Shown: positions 2,147 to 63,193 of the stretch, piece after piece
Numbering within the stretch: the first letter of the stretch is position 1
Layout of the letters: every line of letters starts with the position of its first letter
Source: Bacteroidota bacterium
GTDB taxonomy: Bacteria; Bacteroidota; Bacteroidia; B-17B0; Aurantibacillaceae
Direction of reading: 5' to 3'
Length of the DNA stretch: 64,000 nt
NCBI GenBank assembly: GCA_963169355.1
Contig: CAUJCR010000008.1
Coordinates: 1-64,000 of the forward strand
Translations under genes and position numbers: made by a program
Notes under the pieces: model-generated
Database searches by the model: none
The model's input: the letters and a program-made list of their open reading frames with translations, nothing else
What the model was told of the DNA's origin: nothing

Positions 2147-2803
2147 ATGATTTCTGTTTTAATTGCTGATAAAAACTATTTAAGCCGCTTGGGTTTATAT
2201 ACTTTATTAAGTAATTCGGCTCATTTTGAGGTTGATTATATTGAAAATGAAGCATTTGAAGATATTTTACTTGCTATTAAAAAATTCAAACCAAAAGTTT
2301 TGGTGCTCGATTTTCAGTCGCTTGGTTTAAGCATGAACCAATTAGAAACTATTTCTAAAACGTTTAATCGTTTACAAATATTAGCTATTACCGACTATCT
2401 TCATAAATCGGATATGATGATGGCATTAGAAAGTGGTGTTAAAAGTTATTTGCTAAAAGAGTGCGACAAAGAAGAGATTATTGAAGCCTTACATGCTACT
2501 TATAACGGACAGCGTTTTTTATGCGGAAAAATTGCACATTATTTAGCATCTCCTCAAGAAGAAACCATCATACGCCACGAACTTGATAAGGTATCTTGCA
2601 AGGGCTTAGGCATTACCGATCGTGAATTAGACATCATCCGTTTAATTTCCGAAGGTTTATCAAATAAACTAATTGCTGATAAATTAGAACTAAGTACACA
2701 CACCGTAAACACACATCGCAAAAATATTATGACTAAATTAGGCATCCCTAATACGGCTGGTATTGTGATGTTTGCTGTTAGAAACAACTTATTAGCGGCT
2801 TAA
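2147..2803 (+). CDS. LuxR/NarL-type response regulator
   Basis: The 218-residue protein has an N-terminal receiver-like domain (about 1-120) and a C-terminal LuxR-type helix-turn-helix (about 150-215: GITDRELDIIRLISEGLSNK, then STHTVNTHRKNIMTKLGI). The receiver keeps an Asp at the phosphorylation strand (VLVLDF), a Thr in LAITD and a Lys in SYLLKE, but the acidic pocket reads IADKN rather than the usual DDH, so phosphorylation is likely but not certain. No histidine kinase is adjacent. The ATG at 2147 is preferred because the upstream in-frame TTG overlaps the -7 box. Its targets are unknown. Confidence 0.88.
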   Translation: MISVLIADKNYLSRLGLYTLLSNSAHFEVDYIENEAFEDILLAIKKFKPKVLVLDFQSLGLSMNQLETISKTFNRLQILAITDYLHKSDMMMALESGVKSYLLKECDKEEIIEALHATYNGQRFLCGKIAHYLASPQEETIIRHELDKVSCKGLGITDRELDIIRLISEGLSNKLIADKLELSTHTVNTHRKNIMTKLGIPNTAGIVMFAVRNNLLAA

Positions 2804-2808
2804 TTATA

Positions 2809-2922
2809 ATGGGAAATACATCTTTAGAAATAGGTGATTATTTTATCTTGCTTTTTATTGCACTCGTTTTAGGATTGGGTATTTATACCATCGTAAAATT
2901 TATGAGAAATAAGAATATTTAA
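2809..2922 (+). CDS. 37-residue single-pass membrane protein (small ORF)
   Basis: An ATG six bases after the response-regulator stop opens a 37-codon frame: a short polar N-terminus, one hydrophobic helix (YFILLFIALVLGLGIYTIV) and a basic tail (KFMRNKN). This is a typical N-out, C-in small membrane protein. It is probably co-transcribed with the regulator. The hydrophobic core and positive-inside tail support coding, but the ORF is short and I do not recognise a family. Confidence 0.45.
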   Translation: MGNTSLEIGDYFILLFIALVLGLGIYTIVKFMRNKNI

Positions 2923-2946
2923 CCCTAAATACACCAAACAATTAGC

Positions 2947-2954
2947 TATCTTTG
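2947..2954 (+). promoter_or_regulatory. -7 box before guaA
   Basis: TATCTTTG matches TAnnTTTG and ends 9 bases before the guaA ATG at 2964, implying a very short leader. I see no good TTG -33 element at the expected distance. The in-frame TTG at 2952 lies inside this box, so it is unlikely to be the start. Confidence 0.45.
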
Positions 2955-2963
2955 TTAGCTATT

Positions 2964-4493
2964 ATGCAAGAACAAATTTTAATTCTCGATTTTGGTTCAC
3001 AATTTACACAACTCATAGCCCGTAGGTTGCGAGAGATGAATGTATATTGTGAGATTCATCCATTTAATAAAATTCCTGAAATCACTCCGCAAATAAAAGG
3101 GGTTATTTTATCAGGTAGTCCTCATAGCGTACGACAAGACAAACCGCTTAATCCAGATTTATCAAACATAAAAGGTAAGTTGCCTTTACTAGGTATATGC
3201 TACGGCGCACAACTCCTTGCTCATTTTTATGGTGGCGAAGTTGGTATGTCAAACTCTAGAGAATACGGTCGTGCCAACTTAAATTTTGTAGATAACGAAA
3301 ACCCATTATTTAAAGGCGTTTCAACTAATTCGCAAGTGTGGATGAGCCACGGCGATACCATTGTAAAAATTCCAAGTCATTATAAAGTTATTAGCAGCAC
3401 ACACGATGTAAAAATTGCTGGCTATGCCATTGAAGGAGAACAAAGTTGGGGGATTCAGTTTCATCCAGAGGTGTACCACTCTACCGAAGGCAGCAAACTA
3501 CTCGAAAACTTTGTAAAAGGTGTTTGTGGTTGTAAAGGTAGCTGGACATCGGCATCGTTTATAGATTTAACCGTAAAAGAGTTAAAAGAAAAACTTGGCA
3601 ACGATAAAGTAGTTTTAGGATTATCGGGTGGTGTAGATAGTAGCGTAGCAGCGGTTTTGCTTCATAAAGCCATTGGTGCTAATTTACATTGCATATTTGT
3701 AGATAATGGTTTATTACGCAAAAATGAATTTGAAAGTGTGTTAGACTCCTACAAACACATGGGACTAAACGTAAAAGGCGTAAATGCCAAACAACGATTT
3801 TATGACGCACTAAAAGGCTTAACCGACCCAGAGGCAAAACGCAAAGCCATTGGAAAAGTTTTTGTAGATGTATTTGATGATGAATCTAAATTAATTAGCG
3901 ATGCCAAATGGCTGGGACAAGGTACCATCTATCCCGATGTAATTGAGAGTTTATCAGTCAATGGCCCTTCGGCTACTATTAAATCTCATCACAATGTAGG
4001 TGGATTACCTGATTACATGAAACTAAAAGTAGTAGAACCACTTCGTAGTTTATTTAAAGACGAAGTAAGACGTGTAGGAACTGCATTAGGCATAGATGCT
4101 TCATTAATTGGACGTCATCCATTTCCAGGTCCTGGATTAGCCATTCGTATTTTAGGAGATATTACCGCACAAAAAGTAGAATTATTACAACAAGCCGATT
4201 CAATCTTTATTGAAAATTTAAAATCGGCTGGGTTATACGATAAGGTATGGCAAGCAGGTGTTATTTTATTACCAATACAAAGTGTAGGCGTAATGGGCGA
4301 TGAACGTACCTACGAACAAGTAGTAGCGCTTCGTGCCGTTTCATCTACAGATGGAATGACGGCCGATTGGTGCCACTTACCGTATGAATTTTTAGCAAAA
4401 GTGTCTAACGAAATTATTAATAAAGTAAAAGGTGTTAATCGGGTGGTGTATGATATAAGCTCTAAACCACCTGCTACTATTGAATGGGAATAA
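2964..4493 (+). CDS. guaA: GMP synthase (glutamine-hydrolysing)
   Basis: GuaA converts XMP to GMP in the cytosol using ATP and glutamine. The 509 residues show a class I glutamine amidotransferase domain with nucleophile Cys79 (LGICYGAQ) and the His167/Glu169 pair (FHPEV), then an ATP pyrophosphatase domain with the PP-loop SGGVDSS at 221-227, and the conserved C-terminal dimerisation domain ending in [11 protein letters not shown]. The length is normal. The ATG at 2964 gives the standard N-terminus; a further upstream TTG lies in the -7 box. It is followed after 15 bp by the LysM protein gene. Confidence 0.97.
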
Positions 4494-10446: not shown

Positions 10447-10476
10447 AAAGAAGTAAGCTTTTTAGCTTACTTCTTT
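10447..10476 (-). terminator. terminator of the pyrophosphatase gene, overlapping its stop codon
   Basis: A perfect 13-bp stem (AAAGAAGTAAGCT / AGCTTACTTCTTT) with a 4-nt loop. One arm contains the last two lysine codons and the stop of the gene ending at 10467. On the minus strand a T run follows the stem. It is a strong intrinsic terminator. Confidence 0.75.
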
Positions 10477-13268
10477 AATTGCATTAATTCTAAAGCAATA
10501 TTAATAGTTACATTTTCGCCTAATCCGCCACTATTACCAATGCCAAATTGAGTACGATTAATAACAACTTTTCCTTCTAAACCTGCTACATTATATTTTA
10601 CCTCATTACCATTAGCGTCTTGTCCAGATTGCTCTCCAACGCCTAAATAATTAAATGGAATTTCAGTATCTATGGTTTTATCTTTAATAGTTAATTTTCC
10701 TTTTGCTAGATATGCAAAACCATCAACTGCTGACTCATTCTTAACGATTTCATTCGCCTCAAAAATAATCTTAGGGAATTTCTCTGAATCAAAGAAATCA
10801 GATGCGGCTAAATGGCTATCACGTTTTGCATTTTGAGTATTTATTGTTTTAGCATCAATTTCAATATAAACTTTCTTATCAGCACTTTCTAAATTTACCC
10901 AACCGCTATCAATTACTGCTGTACCTTTTACATTAGATACAATATGGCGAATGCTAAAATCAACAGCCGAGTGGGAACCATCAACATCGTACACACCTTT
11001 TAATTCATTTACATCTTTAGTGTTAGCAGCCATCATGCTATCAGCTTGTGCTTGAGATGAGAATGTATATTCTTGACCATTGATATTTAATTTAATAACT
11101 TCTTCGGTCATTTCCGCAGAACAACAAGCTTCTTTTGTTTCAGAAGAACTACCACCAATTCCAACAATATAAGGTGCAATTACTAATGATACAATTGACA
11201 TTAATTTAATTAAGATGTTCATTGATGGGCCAGAAGTATCTTTAAATGGATCACCTACTGTATCACCTGTTACAGATGCTTTGTGTGGTTCTGATTTTTT
11301 ATAAAATGTTTCGCCATTTATTTGTACACCTTTTTCAAAAGATTTTTTAGCGTTATCCCAAGCACCACCAGCATTGTTTTGGAAAATACCTAACAATACA
11401 CCACTTACTGTTACACCTGCCAATACACCACCTAAAACCTCAGGACCAAATACAAAACCTACAATTACAGGAGTAATTAACGCAATTAAACCTGGTGTAA
11501 TCATTTCGCGAATAGAAGCCTTAGTAGAAATAGCTACACATTTTTCGTATTCAGGTTTTGCTTTGTATTCCATAATTCCTGGAATTTCACGGAACTGACG
11601 ACGAACCTCTTCAACCATATCCATAGCTGCACGACCCACAGCCGCAATTGCTAAAGCTGAGAAGATAAATGGAATCATCGCTCCTACAAATAAACCTGCT
11701 AATACAGGCGCTTTATAAATATCAATAGCTGAAATACCCGCTACACCCACAAATGCTGCAAATAATGCTAATGAAGTTAATGCTGCTGATGCAATAGCGA
11801 AACCTTTACCAGTTGCCGCAGTAGTGTTACCTACAGCATCTAAATTATCAGTACGCTCGCGAACCTCTGGAGGTAATTGACTCATTTCGGCAATACCACC
11901 TGCATTATCAGCAATAGGACCAAACGCATCAATAGCTAATTGCATAGCGGTAGTTGCCATCATACCAGCTGCTGCAATAGCCACACCATATAAACCAGCA
12001 AAATAATAAGAACTCATAATACCAGCTGCTAAAACGATGGTAGGAATTACGGTAGATTCCATACCAACCGATAAACCACCAATAATATTGGTAGCATGTC
12101 CGGTAGCCGATTTCTGAATGATTGAATTTACTGGGCGTTTACCCATTGCCGTATAATACTCGGTAACAATACTCATTAAAGTACCTACTACTAAGCCTAC
12201 AAAAATAGCAGCAAATACATTTAATCTTGTAAACTCATAACCACGTAAATTCATATTTTCTGGTAACATCCAGTTTACAATAAAGTAAGATGCAATAACA
12301 GTTAATACAATAGAAGACCAGTTACCCAAGTTTAAAGCATTTTGTACGCTATCTTTCTCGCCTTTTACACGAACAAATAAAGTACCAATGATTGAGAAAA
12401 TGATTCCTAAACCAGCTATTAACATTGGTAATAAAATTGGAGATAAACCACCAAAATTATCAGAAGACGCATCAATTTCTTGACCAAGCACCATTGTTGC
12501 TAAAATAGTAGCAACATAAGAACCAAATAAATCAGCACCCATACCAGCTACGTCGCCCACGTTATCGCCTACGTTATCAGCAATAGTAGCAGGGTTACGA
12601 ACGTCATCTTCAGGAATACCTGCTTCTACTTTACCTACTAAGTCAGCGCCCACATCGGCTGCTTTCGTATAAATACCACCACCTACACGTGCAAATAAAG
12701 CGATAGACTCAGCACCTAACGAAAAACCAGTTAATACTTCGATAGCTGTTTTAATTTGATTACCCTCTAAATGAGCAAACATAGCTAAGAATACAATAAA
12801 TAAAGCACCTAAGCCAAAAACTGCTAAACCAGCTACACCAAGCCCCATTACAGTACCACCAGTAAATGATACTTTTAAAGCCTTAGCTAAACTCGTACGA
12901 GCGGCTTGTGTTGTACGAACATTAGCCTTTGTAGCTACTTTCATACCAATATATCCAGCAAAAGCTGAAAATACTGCACCAATAATAAATGCTACTGCAA
13001 TAATCCAATGCGAATGAATTTCTCTTCCGTTTACTTCATGAATAGTACCACTCCATCCTAATAAGATGGCTGCTACAAGCACAAAATAACTTAACACTTT
13101 CCATTCAGCTTTTAAGAAAGCCATAGCTCCTGCGGCAATATAACCAGCCAATTCTTTCATATTGGCTTCACCCGCATCTTGCTTATTAATCCAGGCCGAT
13201 TTAACAGCCATTACTACTAATCCTACAATTCCTAATACAGGAATTAAATAAATCAAGTTCTCGTTCAT
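10467..13268 (-). CDS. hppA: K+-dependent membrane pyrophosphatase fused to a YceI domain
   Basis: Residues 1 to about 720 form a membrane-integral ion-pumping pyrophosphatase, which couples pyrophosphate hydrolysis to H+ or Na+ export. Signature motifs are [20 protein letters not shown] (197-216) and the [20 protein letters not shown] block (231-250). [10 protein letters not shown] (480-489) has Ala and Gly where K+-independent enzymes carry Lys and Thr, indicating K+ dependence. The usual TM6 gate glutamate is missing ([10 protein letters not shown]) while Glu187 occurs in GAES of the preceding helix. Residues 760-933 are a complete YceI lipid-binding-type domain ([16 protein letters not shown]) after a linker with a CC pair. 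The usual family length is about 700-770. The reading frame is continuous. Confidence 0.93.
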
Positions 13269-33685: not shown

Positions 33686-36600
33686 TTATTGCTTAACAAT
33701 TTTACCTACTTTAATTGTACTATTATTATTAATTACTTTAAACATATAAATACCATTAGTTAATGTATTTGTATGAATAGTAGTTGTTTCGGTATTTAAA
33801 ACTTCGGTAATTACTAATTTACCAAGTGCATCAAAAATTTGGATTGATGCTTTTCCTGTTAAACTAGTTGGGATAGCAACATTTACAATACCGTTATTTG
33901 GATTTGGATACAATGAAATTCCATTTGCAGAAAGCTCATTAATTCCAGTACAGTTACTAACCGTTACAGTAACATAAGCATCTGTTGAACAACCAGCATC
34001 AGTAGCTGTTACAGTATAAACAGTGGTTACAGTTGGAGAAACCGAAATAGTAGTTGTAGTAGAACCATCATTCCATAATACCGAAGTAGCAGTTGTACTT
34101 GCTGTTAAGATAGATGATCCAGAACCTCCACTACATAATACAGACTGAGAAGCCACAGCAGTTACTGTAGGGATAGGAGCTACATTTACTGTTACATAAG
34201 CTCCGTTTGAGCAAGATGTATTTGTATTTGTAATTACAACAGAATAATGAGTTGTAGCTGTAGGCGTATCGGTTGCTGTTGAAGTTGTAGCAGTAAATCC
34301 TGTAGGATTTGACGACCAATTATAAGTATAAGAAGCATCAGAAACACCTTCCATTTTCACATTATCAATTGCCCAACCATATCCCCAAGTTGCACTATAA
34401 TTAAAACGTACATATAATGTTGGGTTATTTGTATAAGAATTTAAACTGAAAGTTTCTAAGCTAAAACTTGTTGCAGTACCTATATCAGTTGCACCTGGAG
34501 TAAAATCTTGGATTGTATTCCATGTGGTTCCATCAGTAGAGGCTTCAACTTTTACAGAGATATCATCAGAATAATAATGATAATAGTGATAAAAACTTAA
34601 AGTTAATGAACTCAATCCCATAGTATTCAATGCAGGAGATTGTAACAAAGTAGATGTTGTTCCACCGCTACCTTGGGCATCACTATCTGTTAAATAGAAT
34701 TGAGAAGCATCATTACTTGTTAAGTTAGTTCCAACATTTGAAGATGTAAATGGACTATTTCTTAATGTCCAAGCTGCTGCTGCCGAAGTACCACCTGTAG
34801 AGTTGTTGGTTGTAGTCCATGTATTAGTAGCCGCATTAAAATCTTCATTTAATAATACAACAGGGGCAGGATCATTAGCTGTTGCAGATATTGTAACTGT
34901 ACCCGAACCACATAATGCAGTAGGTGTAGCAACAACTGTTATACTAGTTGGAGCTTCTAATACAGAAACAGAACTTGTTGCATTAGTTGCACAACCAGAA
35001 ACTGAATTAGAGGCTGCTACATTATAATTTAATACACCCGCATTTGTTGTATTTACATAAATTGTGTTAGCGTTACCACCTGTATATGAAGTAGTAGCGG
35101 CAGCATCAGTATATAATCCAGTTGTTGGAGTCCATTCATACGAATCGTAATCAGATACAGTAGATGTTACGCTTAAAGTAGCAATGCCTGAACCAGCACA
35201 AACCGAAGCAGGGCTATTAATTGTTAATACAGGAGGAGCAGTAACACTAGCGGTTACCATTGAGCGAGTTCCTTCACATCCTGCCATAAATTTCCAATTA
35301 TAGAAGAAATAATATGTTGTAGAAGTACCACTTATATAACCAGAAGTAATATTACCAACATTACCTATTGCATACGGAAAACCTCCTAATGCACTTTCTC
35401 TAATTAATGAAGGGCCAGATACAGCTATTAAACGATAGCCAGTACCAGGAACAACAGGGAAATTTAAAGCTACTGTATATGGCGTACCAACTGTACCTGT
35501 TGGAATCGCAACAGTTGCTGTTTGTAATACTGTGCCTAAATTATCGGTAAGATTAACCACTAAACTTCCACTAGTACTAGTAGGAAATACATCAACAGAA
35601 GTTAATGTAAAAGATTTAGTTGCATCAAAAACTAAACCATAACTAGATGGAGTTGTATTAGAAGTTGCAGTTGGTGCAGTTCTTGCACCAGAACCTAAAA
35701 CAGGTGCTCCCATAGCAGAAACATAATAATTCGTAGTAGTGCTAATGGAAGGCGTTGTAAATAAAGTACCTGTACCTATTGCAGTACCACCAGTTGGGTT
35801 AGCATACCATTGTAGAGTTGCACCTGCATCTGCTGTAGCAGATAAAGTAGTTGTACCTGTTCCACAACGAGTACTATTAGTTGTAGTTAAAATATTAGGA
35901 GGTAAACAAGGAGTTGTAAATGCATATAACGGAGTCCAAATACTTTCAGTTCCACCACAATCAGCTCTTACATAAACTACATAATCAGTAGCTGGAGTTA
36001 ATGAAGTGAAAGAATAGCTCGTAGTTGATGTAGTAGCAGTTGGAACTGTAGTTGCATTAGGTACTGATAATGGAGCAGGTCCATAATACACATCCCAAGC
36101 TGTTTCTGAACCACCTGCTACCCATGTTGCATTAGCAGTAGTTGGAGTAATTGCTGATACTGTTAATGAAGTTGGAACTGGGCAATTAGCTAATGTAGTA
36201 AATGTAGCATTTGCCCATGGGCTTACATCTACTCCACCACAATAAGACATTACATAAACAGTATAATTTGTTAAAGGCGTTAATCCTGAAACTGTTACAG
36301 AAGTAGCAGGTGCAGTTACTGTACCTGTAGTAGCTAAACCAACTGTTCCACTTCCTGCGGCTCCACTTGTACGTACCTCATAAATATAAGCTGCTGGTGA
36401 ACCAGAAACTGGTGCTGTCCAAGCAATATCTGAACCTGTAGTAGTAATATTAGTAGCTGTAATTGCAGTAGGTGCAAAACAACTTGCTACATTAATATTG
36501 TCTAAATCAACGTAATAATCACCAGCAACCCAAGTTGCAACAAAGCGAACAAACACACTTTGACCCGCATAACTTGATAATGAAAATACCTTATTAGTCC

Positions 36601-38386
36601 ATGCATTAGTAGTGATGGTATGAGTTGTATTATCAATAGTTCCTATTGTGTTAAAAGTAGTACCACAATCGTTACTCACTTGTACTTGGATATTACCCCA
36701 GTTTCCAGTTGGTACTCCACCAGTTGGATAAGAATTGTAGTTTAAAACTCTGTAATCAAAAGCAAAACCTTCATTACCAGTAAGAGTACCTAGTTTTAAA
36801 GTAGTTACAGTAGCTGTTGTTGTACTACTCCACATATTTTTATATAAACCATAAGTACTTACACCATGCGAAGTAGCAAGTGACCACGAAGAGTTATTTG
36901 TCCAACCTGCAGGTATAGTTGCTGTTGCAAATCCTTCGGTATATGGGGCTGGAGTACCAGAAGTTGTGGTTCTAGTAACAAGTGGCATTGCATCGTTAGC
37001 TGGGTTAGCATCTGGCGATGCTAAAGTTGCATTTGCATTTACACTATACACTCCAATAGCAGACATATCATAAGTACTTGTAACAGTAACATTTTGAGTA
37101 GCATTTGCAGCTAAAGTACCAGTATTAATAGTTGTGGTAAATGATTGAGGATTTGTTCCAGTAATATCAGTAATTAAAGTAGCGTTATTAACACTAAAAT
37201 CTAAAACCGAAGAACCAGCATTTTTAATTTGAATTACAACTGGAATTGATGAGCCATAACAGCCATTTGAACTTACTGCTGGATTGGTCATCGTAACAAC
37301 TTGTAAATCTGTAGGGATTGCTGCTGTAATAAAAGTACCAGTTGCAGTGTATCCACTTCCAGTACCGGCTGAATTAGGAATGTGAGACCATATTGCATTA
37401 TTCGTTCCATCAGAAGATTGAACACGAACTTGATAATTAGTAAGAATGTTTAATCCTGTAAGTGTAACAGAATTTGTACTTACTGGGTTTCCAGAGAAAT
37501 TTGTCCATGAACAAGTTCCAGGGATACGATATTGCACATTATATTGTGTGGCACCACTTGGAGCCGTCCAAGAAATATCAGCACTATTTGATGTTATATT
37601 AGAAACAGCTGAAAATACACGCACAGGTGCTAAGGCTGGATTTACAGGTGTAGTCCATGTTAAAGTTAATCCATCTGTAGGCACAACTCCTGAATTGTCA
37701 GAATTGAAATACACTGTACTTGAATTTGTATTTCCAGTTACTGCATCAGCCCAATTACAAGAACTTGGCGAACCTGTAACATCTAACAATAAATTATTTA
37801 TATCGGTAGCCCAGTTAGAAGCTGTTGCTCCATTTGTTTTCCATCCTACATTAAAATAAGAAGTCTTATTAGACGGTGTGCAAGTTCCATAAACAAATGA
37901 AATACTTCCATTTAATGTATTTAATCTAACTTGAAAATTTAACTCATCGGTATATGAATAACGTGTGTAGCTTTTCCATTCAAACACAATCTCATTACCA
38001 ATTACTTCGTAATAAAATGCAGAACCAGTTTTTGAGTTCAAATCCGCATTCATAGGAGCAATTACTACAGAACCATTAGTTACCGAAGTAGCAAGTATGC
38101 CAGATTCTGTTGTAGCGGTTGGAGCTGTAGCATCATATAATACAATCCAACCATTTGAACTTACTCTAGCATTTGTGTATGTAACACCATTTACTGTAAA
38201 GCCAGGTAAGCCTGTTAGGTTTTGTTGATTGTTGTCAGCAGCCATTGCTGCTATATTAGTACCTGTGGCACTAATAGAAGTATAAGTTCCATTACTTACA
38301 CTCAACGGATAATTGATAGCTAATTGCGCTTGTAAACTAACAACGAGCATTAGTAAACTTAGCAAGCTAAATAATCTTTTTTTCAT
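33686..38386 (-). CDS. large secreted multidomain protein with type A T9SS sorting domain
   Basis: The 1566-residue protein has a signal peptide (about 1-21, ending LQAQ), an N-terminal beta-rich domain (about 40-250), a fibronectin type III domain (about 255-345), a CARDB-like region, a choice-of-anchor J/cleaved-adhesin-type domain (starting near APYTEGFATATIPAGW), two more FnIII domains, Ig-like segments (LQWYANPTGGTAIGTGTLF), a second anchor-J-type domain (LNEDFNAATNTWTTTNN) and a type A sorting domain (SLYPNPNNGIVNVAIP to the C-terminus KVGKIVKQ). It is exported through T9SS and attached to or released from the surface; adhesion is likely. It is Thr/Ser/Asn-rich and stands alone. Confidence 0.92.
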   Translation of the reverse strand: MKKRLFSLLSLLMLVVSLQAQLAINYPLSVSNGTYTSISATGTNIAAMAADNNQQNLTGLPGFTVNGVTYTNARVSSNGWIVLYDATAPTATTESGILATSVTNGSVVIAPMNADLNSKTGSAFYYEVIGNEIVFEWKSYTRYSYTDELNFQVRLNTLNGSISFVYGTCTPSNKTSYFNVGWKTNGATASNWATDINNLLLDVTGSPSSCNWADAVTGNTNSSTVYFNSDNSGVVPTDGLTLTWTTPVNPALAPVRVFSAVSNITSNSADISWTAPSGATQYNVQYRIPGTCSWTNFSGNPVSTNSVTLTGLNILTNYQVRVQSSDGTNNAIWSHIPNSAGTGSGYTATGTFITAAIPTDLQVVTMTNPAVSSNGCYGSSIPVVIQIKNAGSSVLDFSVNNATLITDITGTNPQSFTTTINTGTLAANATQNVTVTSTYDMSAIGVYSVNANATLASPDANPANDAMPLVTRTTTSGTPAPYTEGFATATIPAGWTNNSSWSLATSHGVSTYGLYKNMWSSTTTATVTTLKLGTLTGNEGFAFDYRVLNYNSYPTGGVPTGNWGNIQVQVSNDCGTTFNTIGTIDNTTHTITTNAWTNKVFSLSSYAGQSVFVRFVATWVAGDYYVDLDNINVASCFAPTAITATNITTTGSDIAWTAPVSGSPAAYIYEVRTSGAAGSGTVGLATTGTVTAPATSVTVSGLTPLTNYTVYVMSYCGGVDVSPWANATFTTLANCPVPTSLTVSAITPTTANATWVAGGSETAWDVYYGPAPLSVPNATTVPTATTSTTSYSFTSLTPATDYVVYVRADCGGTESIWTPLYAFTTPCLPPNILTTTNSTRCGTGTTTLSATADAGATLQWYANPTGGTAIGTGTLFTTPSISTTTNYYVSAMGAPVLGSGARTAPTATSNTTPSSYGLVFDATKSFTLTSVDVFPTSTSGSLVVNLTDNLGTVLQTATVAIPTGTVGTPYTVALNFPVVPGTGYRLIAVSGPSLIRESALGGFPYAIGNVGNITSGYISGTSTTYYFFYNWKFMAGCEGTRSMVTASVTAPPVLTINSPASVCAGSGIATLSVTSTVSDYDSYEWTPTTGLYTDAAATTSYTGGNANTIYVNTTNAGVLNYNVAASNSVSGCATNATSSVSVLEAPTSITVVATPTALCGSGTVTISATANDPAPVVLLNEDFNAATNTWTTTNNSTGGTSAAAAWTLRNSPFTSSNVGTNLTSNDASQFYLTDSDAQGSGGTTSTLLQSPALNTMGLSSLTLSFYHYYHYYSDDISVKVEASTDGTTWNTIQDFTPGATDIGTATSFSLETFSLNSYTNNPTLYVRFNYSATWGYGWAIDNVKMEGVSDASYTYNWSSNPTGFTATTSTATDTPTATTHYSVVITNTNTSCSNGAYVTVNVAPIPTVTAVASQSVLCSGGSGSSILTASTTATSVLWNDGSTTTTISVSPTVTTVYTVTATDAGCSTDAYVTVTVSNCTGINELSANGISLYPNPNNGIVNVAIPTSLTGKASIQIFDALGKLVITEVLNTETTTIHTNTLTNGIYMFKVINNNSTIKVGKIVKQ

Positions 38387-49393: not shown

Positions 49394-50545
49394 TTAATGA
49401 CTAACCACTAATTTTTGTATATAAGGTTGATAATTATTATTTACTCTTACTGTATAAACACCTGCCGCAAGGTTATGTAAATCTACCACTACTTGTTGGT
49501 GGCAATTGTTTTGGTAAACCATTTGTCCAAGCTCATTTATTATTTCTACACTTGTTAATACATCACTACCAGTGTGTATGGTAACGTTTTGGTTGGCTGG
49601 GTTAGGATAAATTTTCGGCGTAGTATTAGTTTGCACGCATGTCGCTTGAGTAGAAATAATTTTATTAAAGTAGTGAGGCGTACCGTCTGAGTCCACTTGC
49701 TTTAAACGGTAATATACTAAGGCGTTGCCAGTAGTTTGATTATCGGAATACGAATATGATTGCATTTGCGAAGATTGATAATGACCAGGAATGGTAGCAA
49801 TAGAATGATAATTAATACCATCATCACTACGTTGAATTTCAAAATGCTGGCAATTGATTTCACTAGCCGTTACCCATTTTAAGTTAATGCTATTGTTTAA
49901 GCAAGTAGATTCAAAATTGGTAATTTCGGTTGGTAATAAACTGATGCCATTACCAAACTGAAGTGTAAAAGGACAATCATCTCCTTCGTAACCATCTATT
50001 ACAACGTAATAAGTTGCACTGAGGGTTAAATTTGGAACAGTTTGACTTAAACAAGTTTTACCTGATGCTAACAGTGTAGCTCCAGAACCACTCTTGTCAT
50101 ATGATTTTGAAGTTCCACAGGCACTACAATCGGCCCCGCTTAACTGCTTAATAAAAAATTTTTCAGTATAAGGGGGGCTTGAGGTGCTACCACAATTACC
50201 CGAAAAAATTAATACTTGAATACCCGAATAGCCCATCCAATTATCTTTCCTAGTACACCCATTTCCACAACACACTGTAAAAGTAACAGAGGTATTAGTT
50301 GCAACAAATTTATAAAACGCACTATTTTCAATCGTTACATCTCCAAAAACATTACCTCCTTTTTGGTCGAGCCAATTTGGGCTATCTGCTGTATAAGCAC
50401 TTGTATTACCACAATATAAGCCATTGGTTAATATTTGTGGAGCACTTGAGCAATCATCTGATGGAGATTGTGGCTGGCATTGCGATTTTGCAGTTGAATA
50501 CCCTATAAAATAGAAGGCTATTAAAACTATAATATGTAAACGCAT
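49394..50545 (-). CDS. secreted protein with type A T9SS sorting domain
   Basis: About 383 residues from the ATG at 50545: signal peptide (MRLHIIVLIAFYFIGYSTAK), a cysteine-rich N-terminal region (about 25-210, at least 14 Cys, e.g. CCGNGCTRKDN) that I do not recognise, then a region with VTASEINCQHFEIQRSDDGI found before many T9SS tails, and a type A sorting domain (about 310-383: PKIYPNPANQNVTIHTG to YIQKLVVSH). It is exported across the outer membrane; many disulfides suggest an extracellular location. A longer frame to 50569 overlaps a -7 box. Confidence 0.88.
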   Translation of the reverse strand: MRLHIIVLIAFYFIGYSTAKSQCQPQSPSDDCSSAPQILTNGLYCGNTSAYTADSPNWLDQKGGNVFGDVTIENSAFYKFVATNTSVTFTVCCGNGCTRKDNWMGYSGIQVLIFSGNCGSTSSPPYTEKFFIKQLSGADCSACGTSKSYDKSGSGATLLASGKTCLSQTVPNLTLSATYYVVIDGYEGDDCPFTLQFGNGISLLPTEITNFESTCLNNSINLKWVTASEINCQHFEIQRSDDGINYHSIATIPGHYQSSQMQSYSYSDNQTTGNALVYYRLKQVDSDGTPHYFNKIISTQATCVQTNTTPKIYPNPANQNVTIHTGSDVLTSVEIINELGQMVYQNNCHQQVVVDLHNLAAGVYTVRVNNNYQPYIQKLVVSH

Positions 50546-50566
50546 GGCTATATAATTTGGTATAAC

Positions 50567-50574
50567 CAAAACTA
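50567..50574 (-). promoter_or_regulatory. -7 box of the Cys-rich T9SS gene
   Basis: TAGTTTTG on the minus strand fits TAnnTTTG and lies 21 bp before the chosen ATG at 50545. It overlaps an imperfect TTGGT/ACCAA palindrome. No TTG at -33. Confidence 0.35.
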
Positions 50575-56280: not shown

Positions 56281-57744
56281 ATGAAGTTGTTAAGTAACAT
56301 ATTATACAAAACAAGTATTGAAGAAGTTATTGGGAGCACCAATATCTCAGTATCAACTATTACCTTTGATTCTCGTCAGGTTACTGCCCATACATTATTT
56401 GTAGCTATTAAAGGAACCGTTTCTGACGGACATCAATTTATTAATACAGCCATCCAAAACGGCGCTACTGCCATCATTTGCGAAACATTGCCCCCTGAGA
56501 TACAAGCAAATGTAACTTACATTAAAGTTCCAAACTCATCAGCAGCATTGGGATTTGTAGCTTGCAATTATTATGGTAATCCATCTGAAAAATTAAAATT
56601 AATTGGTATTACAGGCACTAATGGAAAAACAACTACGGTAACTCTATTATTTAATTTATTTAAAGGCTTAGGTTATCATGTTGGTTTATTATCTACAGTT
56701 GAAAATAAAATTAATGACACCATAATTCCTTCTACTCACACCACACCTGATGCCTTAAAGTTAAATGAACTTTTAGCTAAAATGGTAGAAGAGAAATGTG
56801 AGTATGTGTTTATGGAAGTAAGTTCACATGCTGTTGTTCAACATCGTATAACAGGGCTACATTTTACAGTAGCTGCATTTTCTAACATCACACACGATCA
56901 TTTAGATTATCATAAAACATTTGAAGAATACATTAAAGCTAAGAAAGGATTTTTTGATGCTTTATCAGAAGATGCTTTTGCACTTACCAATAAAGATGAC
57001 AAAAATGGCGAGGTGATGTTACAAAACACGAAAGCAAAAAAATTCACTTATAGCCTTCGTTCGGTTGCTGATTTTAAATGTAAAGTTATCGAAAATCATT
57101 TGAATGGTTTATTATTAAATATCGACAACCAAGAAGTGTGGGTAAAATTAATAGGCTCTTTTAATGCTTACAATGTATTAGTAGTATATGCTATTTCTCA
57201 AATTTTAAATCAAGAAAAAACTAAAGTATTAACTACACTTAGCAACTTAAACTCTGTTGAAGGACGTTTTCAATATATTAAATCTAAAGATGAAATTGTG
57301 GCGATAGTTGATTATGCTCACACGCCAGATGCCCTAAAAAATGTTTTAGAAACAATTAAAGATATTAGAACAGGTAACGAACAAGTAATTACACTAGTTG
57401 GGTGTGGTGGCGATAGAGATGCTGCTAAGCGTCCTATTATGGCACAAATTGCTTGTGCTTATAGCGACAAAGTAATTCTAACAAGTGATAACCCAAGAAG
57501 TGAAAATCCTGAAGATATTTTAAATCAAATGCAAGCTGGTATTAATCCAGCAGATGCAAGAAAAACTTTAAGAATAAGTGATAGAAAAGAAGCTATTAAA
57601 ACAGCTAGCACGCTTGCTAAAAGAGGCGACATTATTTTGATTGCTGGTAAGGGGCATGAAAAATATCAAGAAATAAAAGGCGTCAAACATCCATTTGATG
57701 ATTTTGAAATTGTAAAACAAACATTTGAACTACTATCGATATAA
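56281..57744 (+). CDS. murE: UDP-MurNAc-tripeptide synthetase (meso-DAP type)
   Basis: MurE adds the third amino acid to UDP-MurNAc-Ala-Glu in the cytosol. The 487 residues show FDSRQVTAHTLFVAIKG, the P-loop ITGTNGKTTT (110-119), the EVSSHAVVQHR segment and the DNPR motif at 403-406, which specifies meso-diaminopimelate rather than lysine. It begins 7 bp after ftsI. Confidence 0.96.
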   Translation: MKLLSNILYKTSIEEVIGSTNISVSTITFDSRQVTAHTLFVAIKGTVSDGHQFINTAIQNGATAIICETLPPEIQANVTYIKVPNSSAALGFVACNYYGNPSEKLKLIGITGTNGKTTTVTLLFNLFKGLGYHVGLLSTVENKINDTIIPSTHTTPDALKLNELLAKMVEEKCEYVFMEVSSHAVVQHRITGLHFTVAAFSNITHDHLDYHKTFEEYIKAKKGFFDALSEDAFALTNKDDKNGEVMLQNTKAKKFTYSLRSVADFKCKVIENHLNGLLLNIDNQEVWVKLIGSFNAYNVLVVYAISQILNQEKTKVLTTLSNLNSVEGRFQYIKSKDEIVAIVDYAHTPDALKNVLETIKDIRTGNEQVITLVGCGGDRDAAKRPIMAQIACAYSDKVILTSDNPRSENPEDILNQMQAGINPADARKTLRISDRKEAIKTASTLAKRGDIILIAGKGHEKYQEIKGVKHPFDDFEIVKQTFELLSI

Positions 57745-57750
57745 CACACT

Positions 57751-59016
57751 ATGATATATTATTTATTTCAATACTTAGATCAACTTAACTTTCCAGGCGC
57801 TGGAGTATTTCAATACATTTCTTTCCGTGCTGCGCTCGCCCTTATGACATCTTTGTTAATATCCATGGTGTTTGGAAAACGTATTATCAACTTCATCAGA
57901 AAAAAACAAATTGGAGAAACAGTTAGAGAGTTAGGCCTGGCAGGACAAACAGAAAAAGCAGGAACTCCAACAATGGGTGGCTTAATTATTCTTGCAGCTA
58001 TTATTACACCTACTCTTTTGTTTGCAAAACTTCACAATGTATATATCATATTAATGTTAATCTCCACAGTGTGGTTAGGTGCAATTGGTTTCTTAGATGA
58101 TTATATTAAAGTATTCAAAAAAAATAAAGAAGGTTTACAAGGTAAATTTAAAGTCATCGGACAAATAGGCATTGGCTTATTAGTTGGGGCGGTGTTATTT
58201 TTTCATCCTGATGTGGTTATCAAAGAACGCGTGAGTGCAAATCAACAAAGTGCTTATTCATTCGACGAAGCCATCAGTAAAACATCGCATTTAAAATTAC
58301 CTAAGTATTCTTCAGAAACTACCAAAACAATTAAAACCACCATCCCATTTGTAAAAAACAATGAATTTGATTACGCTAAAGTTCTTTCATTTATGGGAGA
58401 TAAAGCTGTTCAATATGGTTGGATTATTTTTATTCCGATTGTTATTTTAATTGTAACAGCTGTATCAAACGGAGCAAATATTACAGATGGTATTGATGGA
58501 CTTGCGGCAGGTACAAGTGCTATTATTGGAACTACGCTTGGTATTTTAGCTTATGTAAGCGGTAACACCATCTTTGCCGATTATCTAAACATTATGTACA
58601 TACCACACACTGGCGAGTTGGTGGTATTTATGGCTGCCTTTGTAGGAGCCTGTGTTGGATTCTTATGGTACAACGCTTTTCCAGCACAAGTATTTATGGG
58701 CGATACTGGAAGTTTAGCAATAGGTGGAATTATTGCAGTGTATGCTATTGCCATTCGTAAAGAGTTACTCATTCCTATTTTATGTGGAATCTTTTTAGTA
58801 GAAAACGTATCGGTTATACTTCAAGTTTATTATTTCAAATACCAGAAAAAGAAAAGAGGCATTGAGTACGCTCGAGAGAATCGCTTATTTAAAATGGCAC
58901 CTCTTCACCATCATTATCAAAAACTTGGATTTCATGAAAGTAAAATTGTGATGCGATTTTTCATCATTGGAATCATGTTAGCAGCACTCACCATTGTAAC
59001 CTTAAAATTAAGATAA
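57751..59016 (+). CDS. mraY: phospho-N-acetylmuramoyl-pentapeptide-transferase
   Basis: MraY makes lipid I at the inner membrane. The 421-residue protein has about ten transmembrane helices and the motifs [39 protein letters not shown] and [20 protein letters not shown]. It is about 60 residues longer than the E. coli enzyme; the extra residues (about 151-215) form a soluble loop between helices, a feature seen in Bacteroidota. It follows murE by 6 bp. Confidence 0.96.
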
Positions 59017-59020
59017 GAAC

Positions 59021-60367
59021 TTGAATAAAAGAATTGTCATATTAGGAAGTGGCGAAAGCGGTGTAGGTAGTGCAATTTTAGCACTAGCTAAAGGCTTCGA
59101 CGTGTTTGTATCTGACAAAAACACCATTCAAGAAAAATATAAAACTCAATTAATAGAACATCAAATTGATTTTGAAGAAGGTACTCATACTCTAGAAAAA
59201 ATCTTAAATGCTCATGAAATAATTAAAAGTCCTGGCATTCCAGATAAAGCAGAAATTATTGTAAAAGCGAAAGAGAAAAATATTTCCGTTATCTCCGAAA
59301 TCGAATTTGCAGGACGTTACACACAAGCTAAAAAAATTTGTATTACAGGTAGTAATGGCAAAACAACTACTACACTATTAACATATCATATTCTTAAAAA
59401 AGCAGGATATAATGTAGGCTTAGCAGGCAATGTAGGAAAAAGTTTTGCTTATCAGGTAGCAAAAGAAAATTTTGATTATTATGTTTTAGAATTAAGCAGC
59501 TTTCAATTAGATGGCATGTATGAATTTAAAGCCGATGTTGCTGTTTTATTAAATATTACCCCTGATCATTTAGATAGATACGACTATAAGTTTGAAAATT
59601 ATGTAGCATCTAAATTTAGAATTACACAAAATTTAACTTCAACCGAAGCCTTTGTGTATTGTGCGGATGATGAAGCCATGCAAGACTACATGAAACATCA
59701 TTCTTTTAAAGCAGAGTTGGTGCCATTTAGTATTAAAAAGAAAATTGACGGGAATGGTGCTTACTTAACTAACAATGAAATAACCCTTAATTATAATAAT
59801 AACCCTAAACCCTTAATTATGACAATTGAACAATTAGCCTTAGCTGGTAAACACAATGTTTACAACTCAATGGCAGCATCAATGGCTGCTCGCATCGTAG
59901 ATATCCGTAAAGATATTATCCGCGAAAGTTTAGAAGACTTTGTAAACGTAGAGCACCGTTTAGAATTTGTATCTTCTATTAATGGTGTTGAATTTATTAA
60001 CGACTCAAAAGCTACAAATGTAAACTCAGCATGGTATGCGTTAGAGAGTATGCAAAAACCAACCGTTTGGATAATGGGCGGTCAGGATAAAGGTAATAAC
60101 TACGAAGAGTTAATTGACTTAGTAAAAGAAAAAGTAAAAGCCATTGTATGCTTAGGTGTAAACAACAAAAAAATTATTAAAGCATTTAAAGGCACTGTTG
60201 AAACGATTATTGAAACAGGTTCTGCAGCCGAAGCTGTAGCAGTAGCAAATAAATTAGCTACCAAAGGAGATGCCGTTTTATTATCTCCTGCTTGTGCTAG
60301 TTTTGATTTATTTGAGAATTACGAAGATAGAGGTCAACAATTTAAAGCAGCTGTAAGATCGTTATAA
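59021..60367 (+). CDS. murD: UDP-MurNAc-L-alanine:D-glutamate ligase
   Basis: MurD adds D-glutamate to UDP-MurNAc-Ala. The 448 residues begin at a TTG (no nearby ATG fits) with a dinucleotide-fold N-domain (VILGSGESGVGSA), central ATPase with P-loop GSNGKTTTTL (about 112-121) and NITPDHLDRY, and C-terminal domain with FINDSKATN at 325-333 and LSPACASFD. All three domains are intact. It is immediately followed by a separate gene that repeats only the third domain. Confidence 0.95.
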   Translation: MNKRIVILGSGESGVGSAILALAKGFDVFVSDKNTIQEKYKTQLIEHQIDFEEGTHTLEKILNAHEIIKSPGIPDKAEIIVKAKEKNISVISEIEFAGRYTQAKKICITGSNGKTTTTLLTYHILKKAGYNVGLAGNVGKSFAYQVAKENFDYYVLELSSFQLDGMYEFKADVAVLLNITPDHLDRYDYKFENYVASKFRITQNLTSTEAFVYCADDEAMQDYMKHHSFKAELVPFSIKKKIDGNGAYLTNNEITLNYNNNPKPLIMTIEQLALAGKHNVYNSMAASMAARIVDIRKDIIRESLEDFVNVEHRLEFVSSINGVEFINDSKATNVNSAWYALESMQKPTVWIMGGQDKGNNYEELIDLVKEKVKAIVCLGVNNKKIIKAFKGTVETIIETGSAAEAVAVANKLATKGDAVLLSPACASFDLFENYEDRGQQFKAAVRSL

Positions 60368-60368
60368 T

Positions 60369-60836
60369 ATGAAAGAGAGCGTAATTGGACAAAAAACATT
60401 TTCGATTAGTCGTGAGACTGATCATAGCTTTGAATTTGTAGCTACAATAAATGATGTAACATTTATTAATGACTCTAAGGCTACCAATGCTAAGGCTACA
60501 GTAGAAAGTATTAATTCTGTAGATACTGAATTGGTAGTCATATTAGGTGGAGATGATATGAAAACAGATTATTCTTGGTTTAATAATGTAAATTATTACA
60601 ACATAAAAACGGTGATATATTATGGTCGTCGTTTCCCCGAAATTAAGAATATCTTTAATAAGCATGTCATGCTTATTGTAGCAGATAATTTAGAAAGTAG
60701 TGTAGCTATAGCAAAACAAAATGCTTTAAAAAATCAGGCTGTCTTATTTTCGCCAGCTTGTCCTAGTTACGACCCCTTTGATAATTATAAAAATCGTGGA
60801 AACAAGTTTAAAGAACTTGTTTTACAAAACAGTTAA
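60369..60836 (+). CDS. free-standing MurD C-terminal-domain protein
   Basis: The 155-residue protein aligns only with the third (glutamate-ligase C) domain of MurD: FEFVATINDVTFINDSKATN (FINDSKATN at 32-40 is identical to MurD 325-333), VVILGGDD, and LFSPACPSYDPFDNYKNRG. It has no UDP-binding and no ATPase domain. The rest differs strongly from the intact MurD next door, so it is an old, maintained copy rather than a fresh tandem duplication or a frameshift fragment. It has its own ATG one base after the murD stop and sits before ftsW. The GG-x-x-K lysine of MurD is replaced or shifted (GGDDMK). A binding or regulatory role is inferred. Confidence 0.8.
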   Translation: MKESVIGQKTFSISRETDHSFEFVATINDVTFINDSKATNAKATVESINSVDTELVVILGGDDMKTDYSWFNNVNYYNIKTVIYYGRRFPEIKNIFNKHVMLIVADNLESSVAIAKQNALKNQAVLFSPACPSYDPFDNYKNRGNKFKELVLQNS

Positions 60837-60868: not shown

Positions 60869-62026
60869 ATGAAACAGTTTGCTTACTTAAAAGGCGATAG
60901 AGTCATTTGGGCAGTAGTTTTTCTACTCTCATTGCTTTCTATTTTAGTGGTATATAGTTCTGTTGTTACATTAGCACATAAATACAAGCAAGGAAATACC
61001 GAGGCGTATCTTATTAAACATGCTTTTACAATTATAGGTGGAATCTTAATTATGTACATCACCCACAAAGTAAGATACACATTGTTTTCAAGAGTGGCGC
61101 AGTTTGGAATATTTCTAGTAATCCCATTACTTATTTTTACTTTACTAAAGGGAGTAAGTGCTGGCGATGCAAGTAGATGGGTTGAAATACCAGGGTTAGG
61201 GTTAACATTTCAATCGTCTGATGTTGCTAAAATTATTCTTATCATTTATGTTGCTCGTGCGTTAACAATACATCAAGGTAAGTTAACCGATTTAAAATCG
61301 GTATTTAGATATTTACTTTTGCCAATTGGTGTTATTTGCTTATTAATATTTCCTGCCAACTTTTCTACTGCAGCTCTATTATTTGTCAATTGTTTATTCC
61401 TCATGTTTATTGGTGGAATTAACTTTAAAGTTATAGGAAAAATAATTGGCATTTGTGTATTAGTAGGCACTATTACCCTTGGCTGGATACTCCTTTCGCC
61501 AGAAACCTTTCCTACAAAACGAGCTATTACATGGAATAATCGTATCGAAAACTTCTCGAAGGGAGATTCTGAAAGTAATTATCAAAGCGACCAAGCAAAA
61601 ATTGCAATTGCTACTGGAGGTATTCTTGGAAAAGGCCCAGGCAATAGTACGCAACGTGCATTTTTACCACAAGCCTCCTCCGATTTTATTTATGCCATTA
61701 TCATTGAAGAGTACGGTGTGGTAGCTGGTTTTGTGCTTATTTTTTTATATATGATTTTATTATTTAGAGGCATTCGTATCTTAAGAGATTCAGAAAAACC
61801 CTTTGGCGGATTAATGGCTATTGGCTTGAGTTTTAGTTTAGTGTTTCAAGCACTTATTAATATGGCTGTTGCAGTTAATTTATTTCCTGTAACTGGTCAA
61901 CCTCTTCCTTTAGTAAGTATGGGTGGAACATCTATTTGGTTTACCTGCCTTGCTATTGGTATTATTTTAAGTGTAAGTAAAATAAACGAAGAAAAAGATA
62001 CAAAAGAAAAAATAGCTACTGAATAA
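60869..62026 (+). CDS. ftsW: peptidoglycan glycosyltransferase FtsW
   Basis: FtsW polymerises septal glycan from lipid II, working with FtsI. The 385-residue SEDS protein has about ten transmembrane helices and the family motifs KGVSAGDASRWVEIPGLGLT, FQSSDVAKIILIIYVAR, GKGPGNSTQRAFLPQASSDF, FIYAIIIEEYG and TGQPLPLVSMGGTS. It lies between the MurD C-domain gene and murG in the dcw order. It starts 32 bp after the previous stop. Confidence 0.95.
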   Translation: MKQFAYLKGDRVIWAVVFLLSLLSILVVYSSVVTLAHKYKQGNTEAYLIKHAFTIIGGILIMYITHKVRYTLFSRVAQFGIFLVIPLLIFTLLKGVSAGDASRWVEIPGLGLTFQSSDVAKIILIIYVARALTIHQGKLTDLKSVFRYLLLPIGVICLLIFPANFSTAALLFVNCLFLMFIGGINFKVIGKIIGICVLVGTITLGWILLSPETFPTKRAITWNNRIENFSKGDSESNYQSDQAKIAIATGGILGKGPGNSTQRAFLPQASSDFIYAIIIEEYGVVAGFVLIFLYMILLFRGIRILRDSEKPFGGLMAIGLSFSLVFQALINMAVAVNLFPVTGQPLPLVSMGGTSIWFTCLAIGIILSVSKINEEKDTKEKIATE

Positions 62027-62068: not shown

Positions 62069-63193
62069 ATGAAACCATTAAAAGTAATATTAAGCGGTGG
62101 CGGCACTGGAGGACATATCTTTCCAGCAGTAGCTATTGCTAATGAAATAAAAAAAATGGTTCCTCATGCCGATATATTATTTGTGGGTGCATTAGGTAAA
62201 ATGGAAATGGAAAAAGTACCTCATGCTGGCTATAAAATTATTGGTGTTCCAATTGCAGGCTTACAACGAGGAAAAATTTTCGCGAATTTAAAACTTCCAT
62301 TTTTATTACTTAAAAGTTGGTTAAAAACAAAAAAAATAATTGATGAATTTAAACCACAAGTTGTAATTGGAACAGGAGGCTATGCTTCATTTCCAGTTCT
62401 TAAAACCGCTTCGGATAAAGGCATTCCTACACTCTTACAAGAACAAAATTCATTTGCTGGAAAAACAAATAAAATTTTATCGAAAAAGGCTAGTAAAATT
62501 TGTGTAGCCTACGAAGGCATGGAGCAATTTTTTCCGAAGGAGAAAATAATTTTAACTGGCAATCCTGTTCGTCAAGATTTAAAAAACGTAAAGCAACACA
62601 AACAAGAGGCTCAACAATTTTTTAAACTAGACGCTACTAAAAAAACAATATTAGTTATAGGCGGTAGTTTAGGCGCACGAACCATTAATGAAGCAATAGG
62701 GCAAGAACTAAAGTATATTGCCGAGCATAATATTCAACTAATTTGGCAAACAGGAAAAGGATATTTTGAAACAGCCAAACAACAATGTGCTGCTTTTTCT
62801 CAACAACAAATTTTTGCATTTGATTTTATTACCCGAATGGATTTAGCCTATGCTTGTGCTGATGTTGTGATTTCGAGGGCGGGCGCCAGTTCTGTTTCCG
62901 AACTTTGTAATATAGGTATGCCTTGTGTTTTGGTACCTTCGCCTAATGTTGCCGAAGACCATCAAACTAAAAATGCCATGGCATTGGTTAATAAAAACGC
63001 CGCTATCCTTGTAAAAGATAATGAGGCAAAAACCAAATTAGTAAAACAAGCAATTGATTTAATTAATAATAACTCTTTACAAGAAACATTAACTAAAAAT
63101 ATAAGTCAAATGGCTTATTATAATTCGGCCAATGTTATTGCAACAGAAGTACTAAAATTAGCAGGATACGCAGATGAACATACTAAATTATAA
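62069..63193 (+). CDS. murG: UDP-GlcNAc:lipid I transferase MurG
   Basis: MurG adds GlcNAc to lipid I at the cytoplasmic membrane face, giving lipid II. The 374 residues show the GGTGGHIFPAVAIANEI loop near the N-terminus, GTGGYASFPVL, QEQNSFAGKTNKIL, GGSLGARTINEA and the C-terminal AGASSVSELCNIGMPCVLVP motif. The length is typical. Its end overlaps the start of murC by 20 bp. Confidence 0.96.
   Translation: MKPLKVILSGGGTGGHIFPAVAIANEIKKMVPHADILFVGALGKMEMEKVPHAGYKIIGVPIAGLQRGKIFANLKLPFLLLKSWLKTKKIIDEFKPQVVIGTGGYASFPVLKTASDKGIPTLLQEQNSFAGKTNKILSKKASKICVAYEGMEQFFPKEKIILTGNPVRQDLKNVKQHKQEAQQFFKLDATKKTILVIGGSLGARTINEAIGQELKYIAEHNIQLIWQTGKGYFETAKQQCAAFSQQQIFAFDFITRMDLAYACADVVISRAGASSVSELCNIGMPCVLVPSPNVAEDHQTKNAMALVNKNAAILVKDNEAKTKLVKQAIDLINNNSLQETLTKNISQMAYYNSANVIATEVLKLAGYADEHTKL

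Follow-up and report, generated by a model that had tools for sequence, protein, structure and literature searches.

A free-standing MurD C-terminal domain encoded directly upstream of ftsW in the dcw cluster of Bacteroidia

Domain identity and relation to described Mur proteins

The described systems closest to the protein reported here are the lipid II isoglutaminyl synthase MurT-GatD, the ligase MurD itself, and the MurD2/MurL route. MurT-GatD places a Mur-ligase-type C-terminal fold in a hetero-complex, and MurT retains its ATP domain. A complete MurD comprises a UDP-binding domain, an ATPase domain with a GK[ST] loop, and a C-terminal domain (domain 3); in E. coli numbering, which we use for all MurD positions, residues K348, T321, S415 and F422 are in contact with the D-Glu-like moiety of MurD inhibitors (PMC3527612). 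In the MurD2/MurL route L-Glu is added and then epimerised, and MurD2, a complete ligase, carries Arg in place of K348, Pro in place of A414 and Phe in place of L416 (PMC8788868). The same review lists this route for Proteobacteria and Actinobacteria only.

The window analysed here (the whole stretch of 64,000 nucleotides from the start of contig CAUJCR010000008.1 of a Bacteroidota bacterium) encodes a free-standing paralogue of MurD domain 3, referred to as the solo (P0001; 60369-60836, plus strand). A preliminary description had placed it as a gene of its own, with its own start, between murD and ftsW, and the open reading frame has exactly these limits, beginning with ATG, encoding 155 residues and containing no frameshift. 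The surrounding genes, all on the plus strand, are murE (56281-57744), mraY (57751-59016), a complete murD of 448 codons with a TTG start (59021-60367; TIGR01087, 398 bits), ftsW (60869-62026) and murG (62069-63193). One nucleotide separates the murD stop from the solo, and 32 nt separate the end of the solo from the ftsW start. In most genomes the solo lies 1-40 nt downstream of murD, and many copies are separated from it by only 1-3 nt, a spacing consistent with translational coupling.

Elsewhere in the window, a membrane H+-pyrophosphatase (PF03030) is fused to a C-terminal YceI-like domain (PF04264) in one 933-aa frame (10467-13268, minus strand). Two further minus-strand genes (33686-38386 and 49394-50569) encode predicted type IX secretion cargo (Por_Secre_tail), the larger also with fn3 and Ig_7 domains.

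Residues 18-151 of the solo align to residues 311-445 of the MurD encoded beside it (38% identity, E 1e-26). The murD model TIGR01087 matches the solo with 127.1 bits over model positions 303-440 only, below the whole-protein cut-off of 211.95 bits, and Pfam PF02875 (Mur_ligase_C), the sole domain above cut-off, scores 29.1 bits, just above its gathering cut-off of 28.4. The adjacent MurD has PF21377, PF08245 and PF02875. Among other solos, the copy on L174 passes PF02875 with 50.7 bits, and those on L170 and L191 fall below the cut-off. An AlphaFold2 model built from 30 solo rows (mean pLDDT 87, pTM 0.83) predicts the Mur ligase C-terminal fold. The best Foldseek matches of this model are all MurD domain 3 (about 141 residues, TMq up to 0.81, rmsd 1.9), and solved MurDs are the only matches in a sequence search of the PDB. 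The N-terminal tail, residues 1-16 (60369-60416, plus strand), is predicted to be disordered (pLDDT below 50); in other families the solos have a longer N-terminus, which alignments derive from the junction of MurD domains 2 and 3. Alignment, model span and fold thus agree with the original proposal that the protein repeats domain 3 of MurD only, without the UDP and ATP domains. One significant match to the solo model was found in a viral structure library (A0A8S0I5L0, 276 aa, E 1.7e-10, TMq 0.74), an unnamed protein that could be a fragment of MurD, either carried by a phage or wrongly assigned.

The relation to MurT is distant in sequence. MurT models do not match the solo, the MurT-type middle (ATPase) domain is absent from it as well, the structural match is weak (TMq 0.54-0.59), and the solo's neighbours are murD and ftsW. 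No dedicated Pfam or NCBIfam model fits the free-standing protein, in line with the earlier statement that it has no named family. Searches of open-access papers, judged by title and abstract, gave none on a MurD C-terminal domain encoded by itself or on duplication of murD within the dcw cluster. The domain is already known; it is the free-standing, catalytically eroded and positionally conserved protein that would be new.

MurD and the solo share the fold, the order of the motifs and the signatures IND-S, SPAC-S and NY-RG. The motif FINDSKATN (residues 32-40, corresponding to MurD 314-322; 60462-60488, plus strand) is identical to that of the adjacent MurD, and the SPAC-S-D-F-NY-RG region is near-identical, both as initially reported. 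The latter lies within SPACPSYDPFDNYKNRG (residues 128-144; 60750-60800, plus strand), and the solo-type residues F127, P132 and K141 lie at or beside it. In GGDDMK (residues 60-65; 60546-60563, plus strand) the position of K348 is taken by methionine (M64) and the lysine is shifted by one, which bears out the reported alteration of the GG-x-x-Lys motif.

Residue columns of 49 solos and 51 MurDs extend this comparison. Common to both groups are H301, E304, N316, S318, G344, P411, C413, S415 (43 of the 49 solos), R425, G426 and F429. In contrast, K348, the D-Glu lysine, is present in 50 of the 51 MurDs and has been lost from 43 of the 49 solos (Lys in 6). The ATP-side residues R302 and K319 are found in 50 or 51 of the MurDs; R302 is Arg in only 13 of the solos (lost in 36) and K319 is retained in 32. 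T321 is retained in 30 solos and N322 in 15. The solos have gained Phe at L409 (46/49), Pro at A414 (29/49) and Lys at E423 (32/49), and often vary at the sites that distinguish MurD2. The claim that residues contacting D-Glu are kept therefore holds only in part: the solos of the window's genus mostly retain K319, T321 and S415 and never K348 (11 tabulated rows: K319 in 11, T321 in 9, S415 in 10, K348 in none), and as a general rule the claim is not supported. Since domains 1 and 2 are absent and both K348 and R302 are gone, D-glutamate ligase activity of the solo appears implausible under the established MurD mechanism.

Distribution, position and selection

Within the window's genus the solo is found in all 20 genomes examined (19 complete copies and one truncated at the edge of a contig). 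An even sample of 296 Bacteroidia genomes, each at least 90% complete, contains it in 65 genomes and 19 of the 74 families, excluding second matches proven to be other ligases or split genes. None of 88 sampled genomes from other classes of the phylum has a solo. A scan of genome contigs shows it beside murD also in uncultured Bacteroidetes, a Sediminibacterium MAG, Flavobacteriales and a Crocinitomicaceae MAG.

Several matches were set aside. Solo-like matches in other phyla are ordinary full-length MurDs or, on L111, a MurD interrupted where the contig stops; L072 has a split MurD beside its solo. A 612-aa frame in G111 that seemed to fuse the solo to another domain is a stop-to-stop artefact, solo and FtsW being separate reading frames. 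In G065, G229 and G276 a second match of low significance (about 1e-4) lies in a frame of 418-500 aa and apparently belongs to another Mur ligase; G183 has a single match only, at 1e-10, and G269 and G341 have split MurDs. None of these entered the count.

With mraY, murE and murG as synteny markers, the usual gene order is mraY-murD-solo-ftsW-murG-murC. Apart from a few extra diverged copies, the solo lies directly upstream of ftsW in every inspected copy, and ftsW is the neighbour retained in every inspected dcw arrangement. The place in the dcw cluster, observed first in a single contig, is a fixed one, and it is the same in the single-contig genome G199. A sequencing error can be excluded because numerous independent genomes share this arrangement. 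One genome (G336, family f74) harbors two diverged solos in tandem between murD and ftsW (L144:1984-2496 and 2531-3061). Additional, strongly diverged copies occur off the dcw cluster in families f4, f42 and f46 (L042:2283-2822, L171:1871-2488, L172:2195-2833 and L173:1622-2281), near no cell-wall gene where flanks were read.

Close pairs of solos have dN/dS values of 0.02-0.1, about equal to those of murD and ftsW. Together with the occurrence throughout the genus, these values uphold the early suggestion that the gene is maintained by selection; neither relaxed selection nor absence from all relatives was found. In genomes without the solo, 14-180 nt lie between murD and ftsW and the intervening sequence is clean, with no solo remnant. 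Most of the class lacks the gene, and its occurrence is uneven even among members of a single genus (f21/g30); it is therefore dispensable.

Origin and natural separation from murD

In a tree of 122 domain-3 sequences, which rests on only 136 columns, all 51 full-length MurDs from the class group together in a clade (SH-aLRT 85) that contains no solo. Trees in which the solos are constrained to a single clade pass the AU test (p 0.80 and 0.70) and are likelier than the free ones; solo subgroups mirror MurD subgroups. These results support a single origin of the solos as probable. Separate duplications in each lineage are not supported, since the MurD clade is free of solos and a single clade of solos is compatible with the data. 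In several families the N-terminal part of the solo resembles the junction between MurD domains 2 and 3, as in MNFETLAQQ...MAASVAQRIYELRKKSL of family f73 compared with MTIEQLALAG...MAASMAARIVDIRKDII of the window's MurD. Most simply, the solo would have arisen in an ancestor of the class by a single in-place tandem duplication of about the last 180 codons of murD, comprising the junction helix and domain 3. The duplicate would then have evolved faster, lost the ligase chemistry and become free-standing, with many losses by lineage.

Family f73 separates the solo from its presumed parent. The solo is present in 38 of its 41 genomes, and the dcw order is mraY-solo-ftsW, with no murD within, in all inspected flanks (on L183 the sequence ends ahead of ftsW). 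These genomes have just one further MurD-like protein, which is distant in sequence and encoded away from the cluster. It carries Arg in place of K348, the replacement known from MurD2 (PMC8788868), and in many genomes forms one chain with a MurL-like part; in the fusion on L215 the MurL model matches residues 73-445 with 258 bits and the murD model residues 470-873. The glutamate racemase MurI is found in none of 16 f73 genomes and in 8 of 8 controls, whereas MurL is found in all 16, below the Xanthomonadales-specific cut-off of its model, and in none of the 8 controls. Because MurI and a dcw murD are lacking and MurL is present throughout, f73 most likely obtains the D-Glu residue through MurL, having lost both canonical MurD and MurI-supplied free D-Glu. 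In these genomes MurD2 and the solo coexist as separate genes, the one a complete ligase, the other a single domain. The f73 solos are under purifying selection, stronger than that on the adjacent ftsW (NG86 dN/dS mostly 0.02-0.08, compared with 0.11-0.21).

The f73 copies fall outside the MurD clade and the more conserved ones share the solo-type Pro at A414; their orthology with the other solos has moderate support (SH-aLRT 85). Even if they were truncated murD remnants, it would stand that domain 3 alone is still useful without canonical MurD. A second separation occurs in genome G101, whose mraY-murD pair and solo are on different contigs, the solo still immediately upstream of ftsW.

The MurL-MurD2 loci of f73, fused or split, include L215:1264-3894 (minus strand) and L217:11-2473 (plus strand), with further loci on L154, L184, L185, L188-L190, L193, L196, L198 and L199. 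The family is a whole Bacteroidia family with MurL-MurD2 and without MurI, beyond the groups listed in PMC8788868.

Possible function

We tentatively favour a non-catalytic adaptor or regulator, a binding module whose action lies toward the FtsW side of the dcw cluster. An FtsW-side role is preferred because ftsW is the constant element across dcw arrangements. The solo would be translated in the dcw operon directly before ftsW, would presumably act by protein binding, and would bind the membrane or division side (FtsW, possibly MraY or MurG), being neither a D-glutamate sensor nor an obligate MurD subunit. It is the gene neighbourhood, with the two separation events in one family and one genome, that points to a partner on this side. 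Of the roles proposed at the outset, the link to the divisome survives best. A bolder version, in which the solo is a class-wide accessory factor working with FtsW in septal wall synthesis and couples precursor supply to division independently of its parent enzyme, is possible but doubtful.

A paralogue of MurD domain 3 with a conserved fold, encoded mostly just downstream of murD, could instead regulate or stabilise MurD as a partner that docks on domains 1-2 of the enzyme, either replacing its own domain 3 or sitting next to it. We consider this unlikely, since f73 keeps the solo without canonical murD, where an obligate MurD subunit should be useless, and G101 has parted the two genes. A read-through model of MurD and solo gives pTM 0.59 and no confident docking, weak evidence from only 8 paired rows; unpaired solo rows align to MurD's own domain 3. 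The initial suggestion of a MurD stabiliser has lost ground accordingly. The persistence of the solo where a MurL-MurD2 protein replaces MurD would fit with a protein that binds Mur ligases generally (MurC, MurE, MurF, or MurD2 in f73) and gathers the cytoplasmic ligases. The solo is surrounded by mur genes, and a study in Bordetella reports MurG as a scaffold for Mur ligases (PMC6420597). However, the conserved adjacency is to ftsW and not to ligase genes, and we regard this reading as likewise unlikely.

Sensing of D-glutamate, ATP/ADP or UDP-MurNAc-peptides, of which a D-Glu or UDP-MurNAc-intermediate sensor had been suggested before, would agree with the retention of K319, T321 and S415 in most solos of the window's genus. 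It is nevertheless improbable: most solos have lost K348 and R302, the UDP-binding domain is absent, and f73 retains the solo without MurI, MurD and the usual D-Glu route, a setting in which a D-Glu sensor should be useless. A decaying duplicate or an assembly artefact, to which lost catalytic residues and the many relatives without a solo might point, is ruled out by the low dN/dS, the same place in 19 families including the single-contig G199, and the remnant-free empty sites.

The FtsW-side adaptor thus remains our tentative reading. The dcw cluster is among the best-studied bacterial gene clusters, yet about one fifth of the sampled Bacteroidia hold an extra, strongly conserved gene there. 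A pseudo-enzyme derived from an essential antibiotic target and outliving its replaced parent offers a case, open to testing, in which the synthesis of precursors would be connected to the division machinery by non-enzymatic means, and f73 constitutes a natural experiment that separates the function of the domain from MurD and from D-glutamate.
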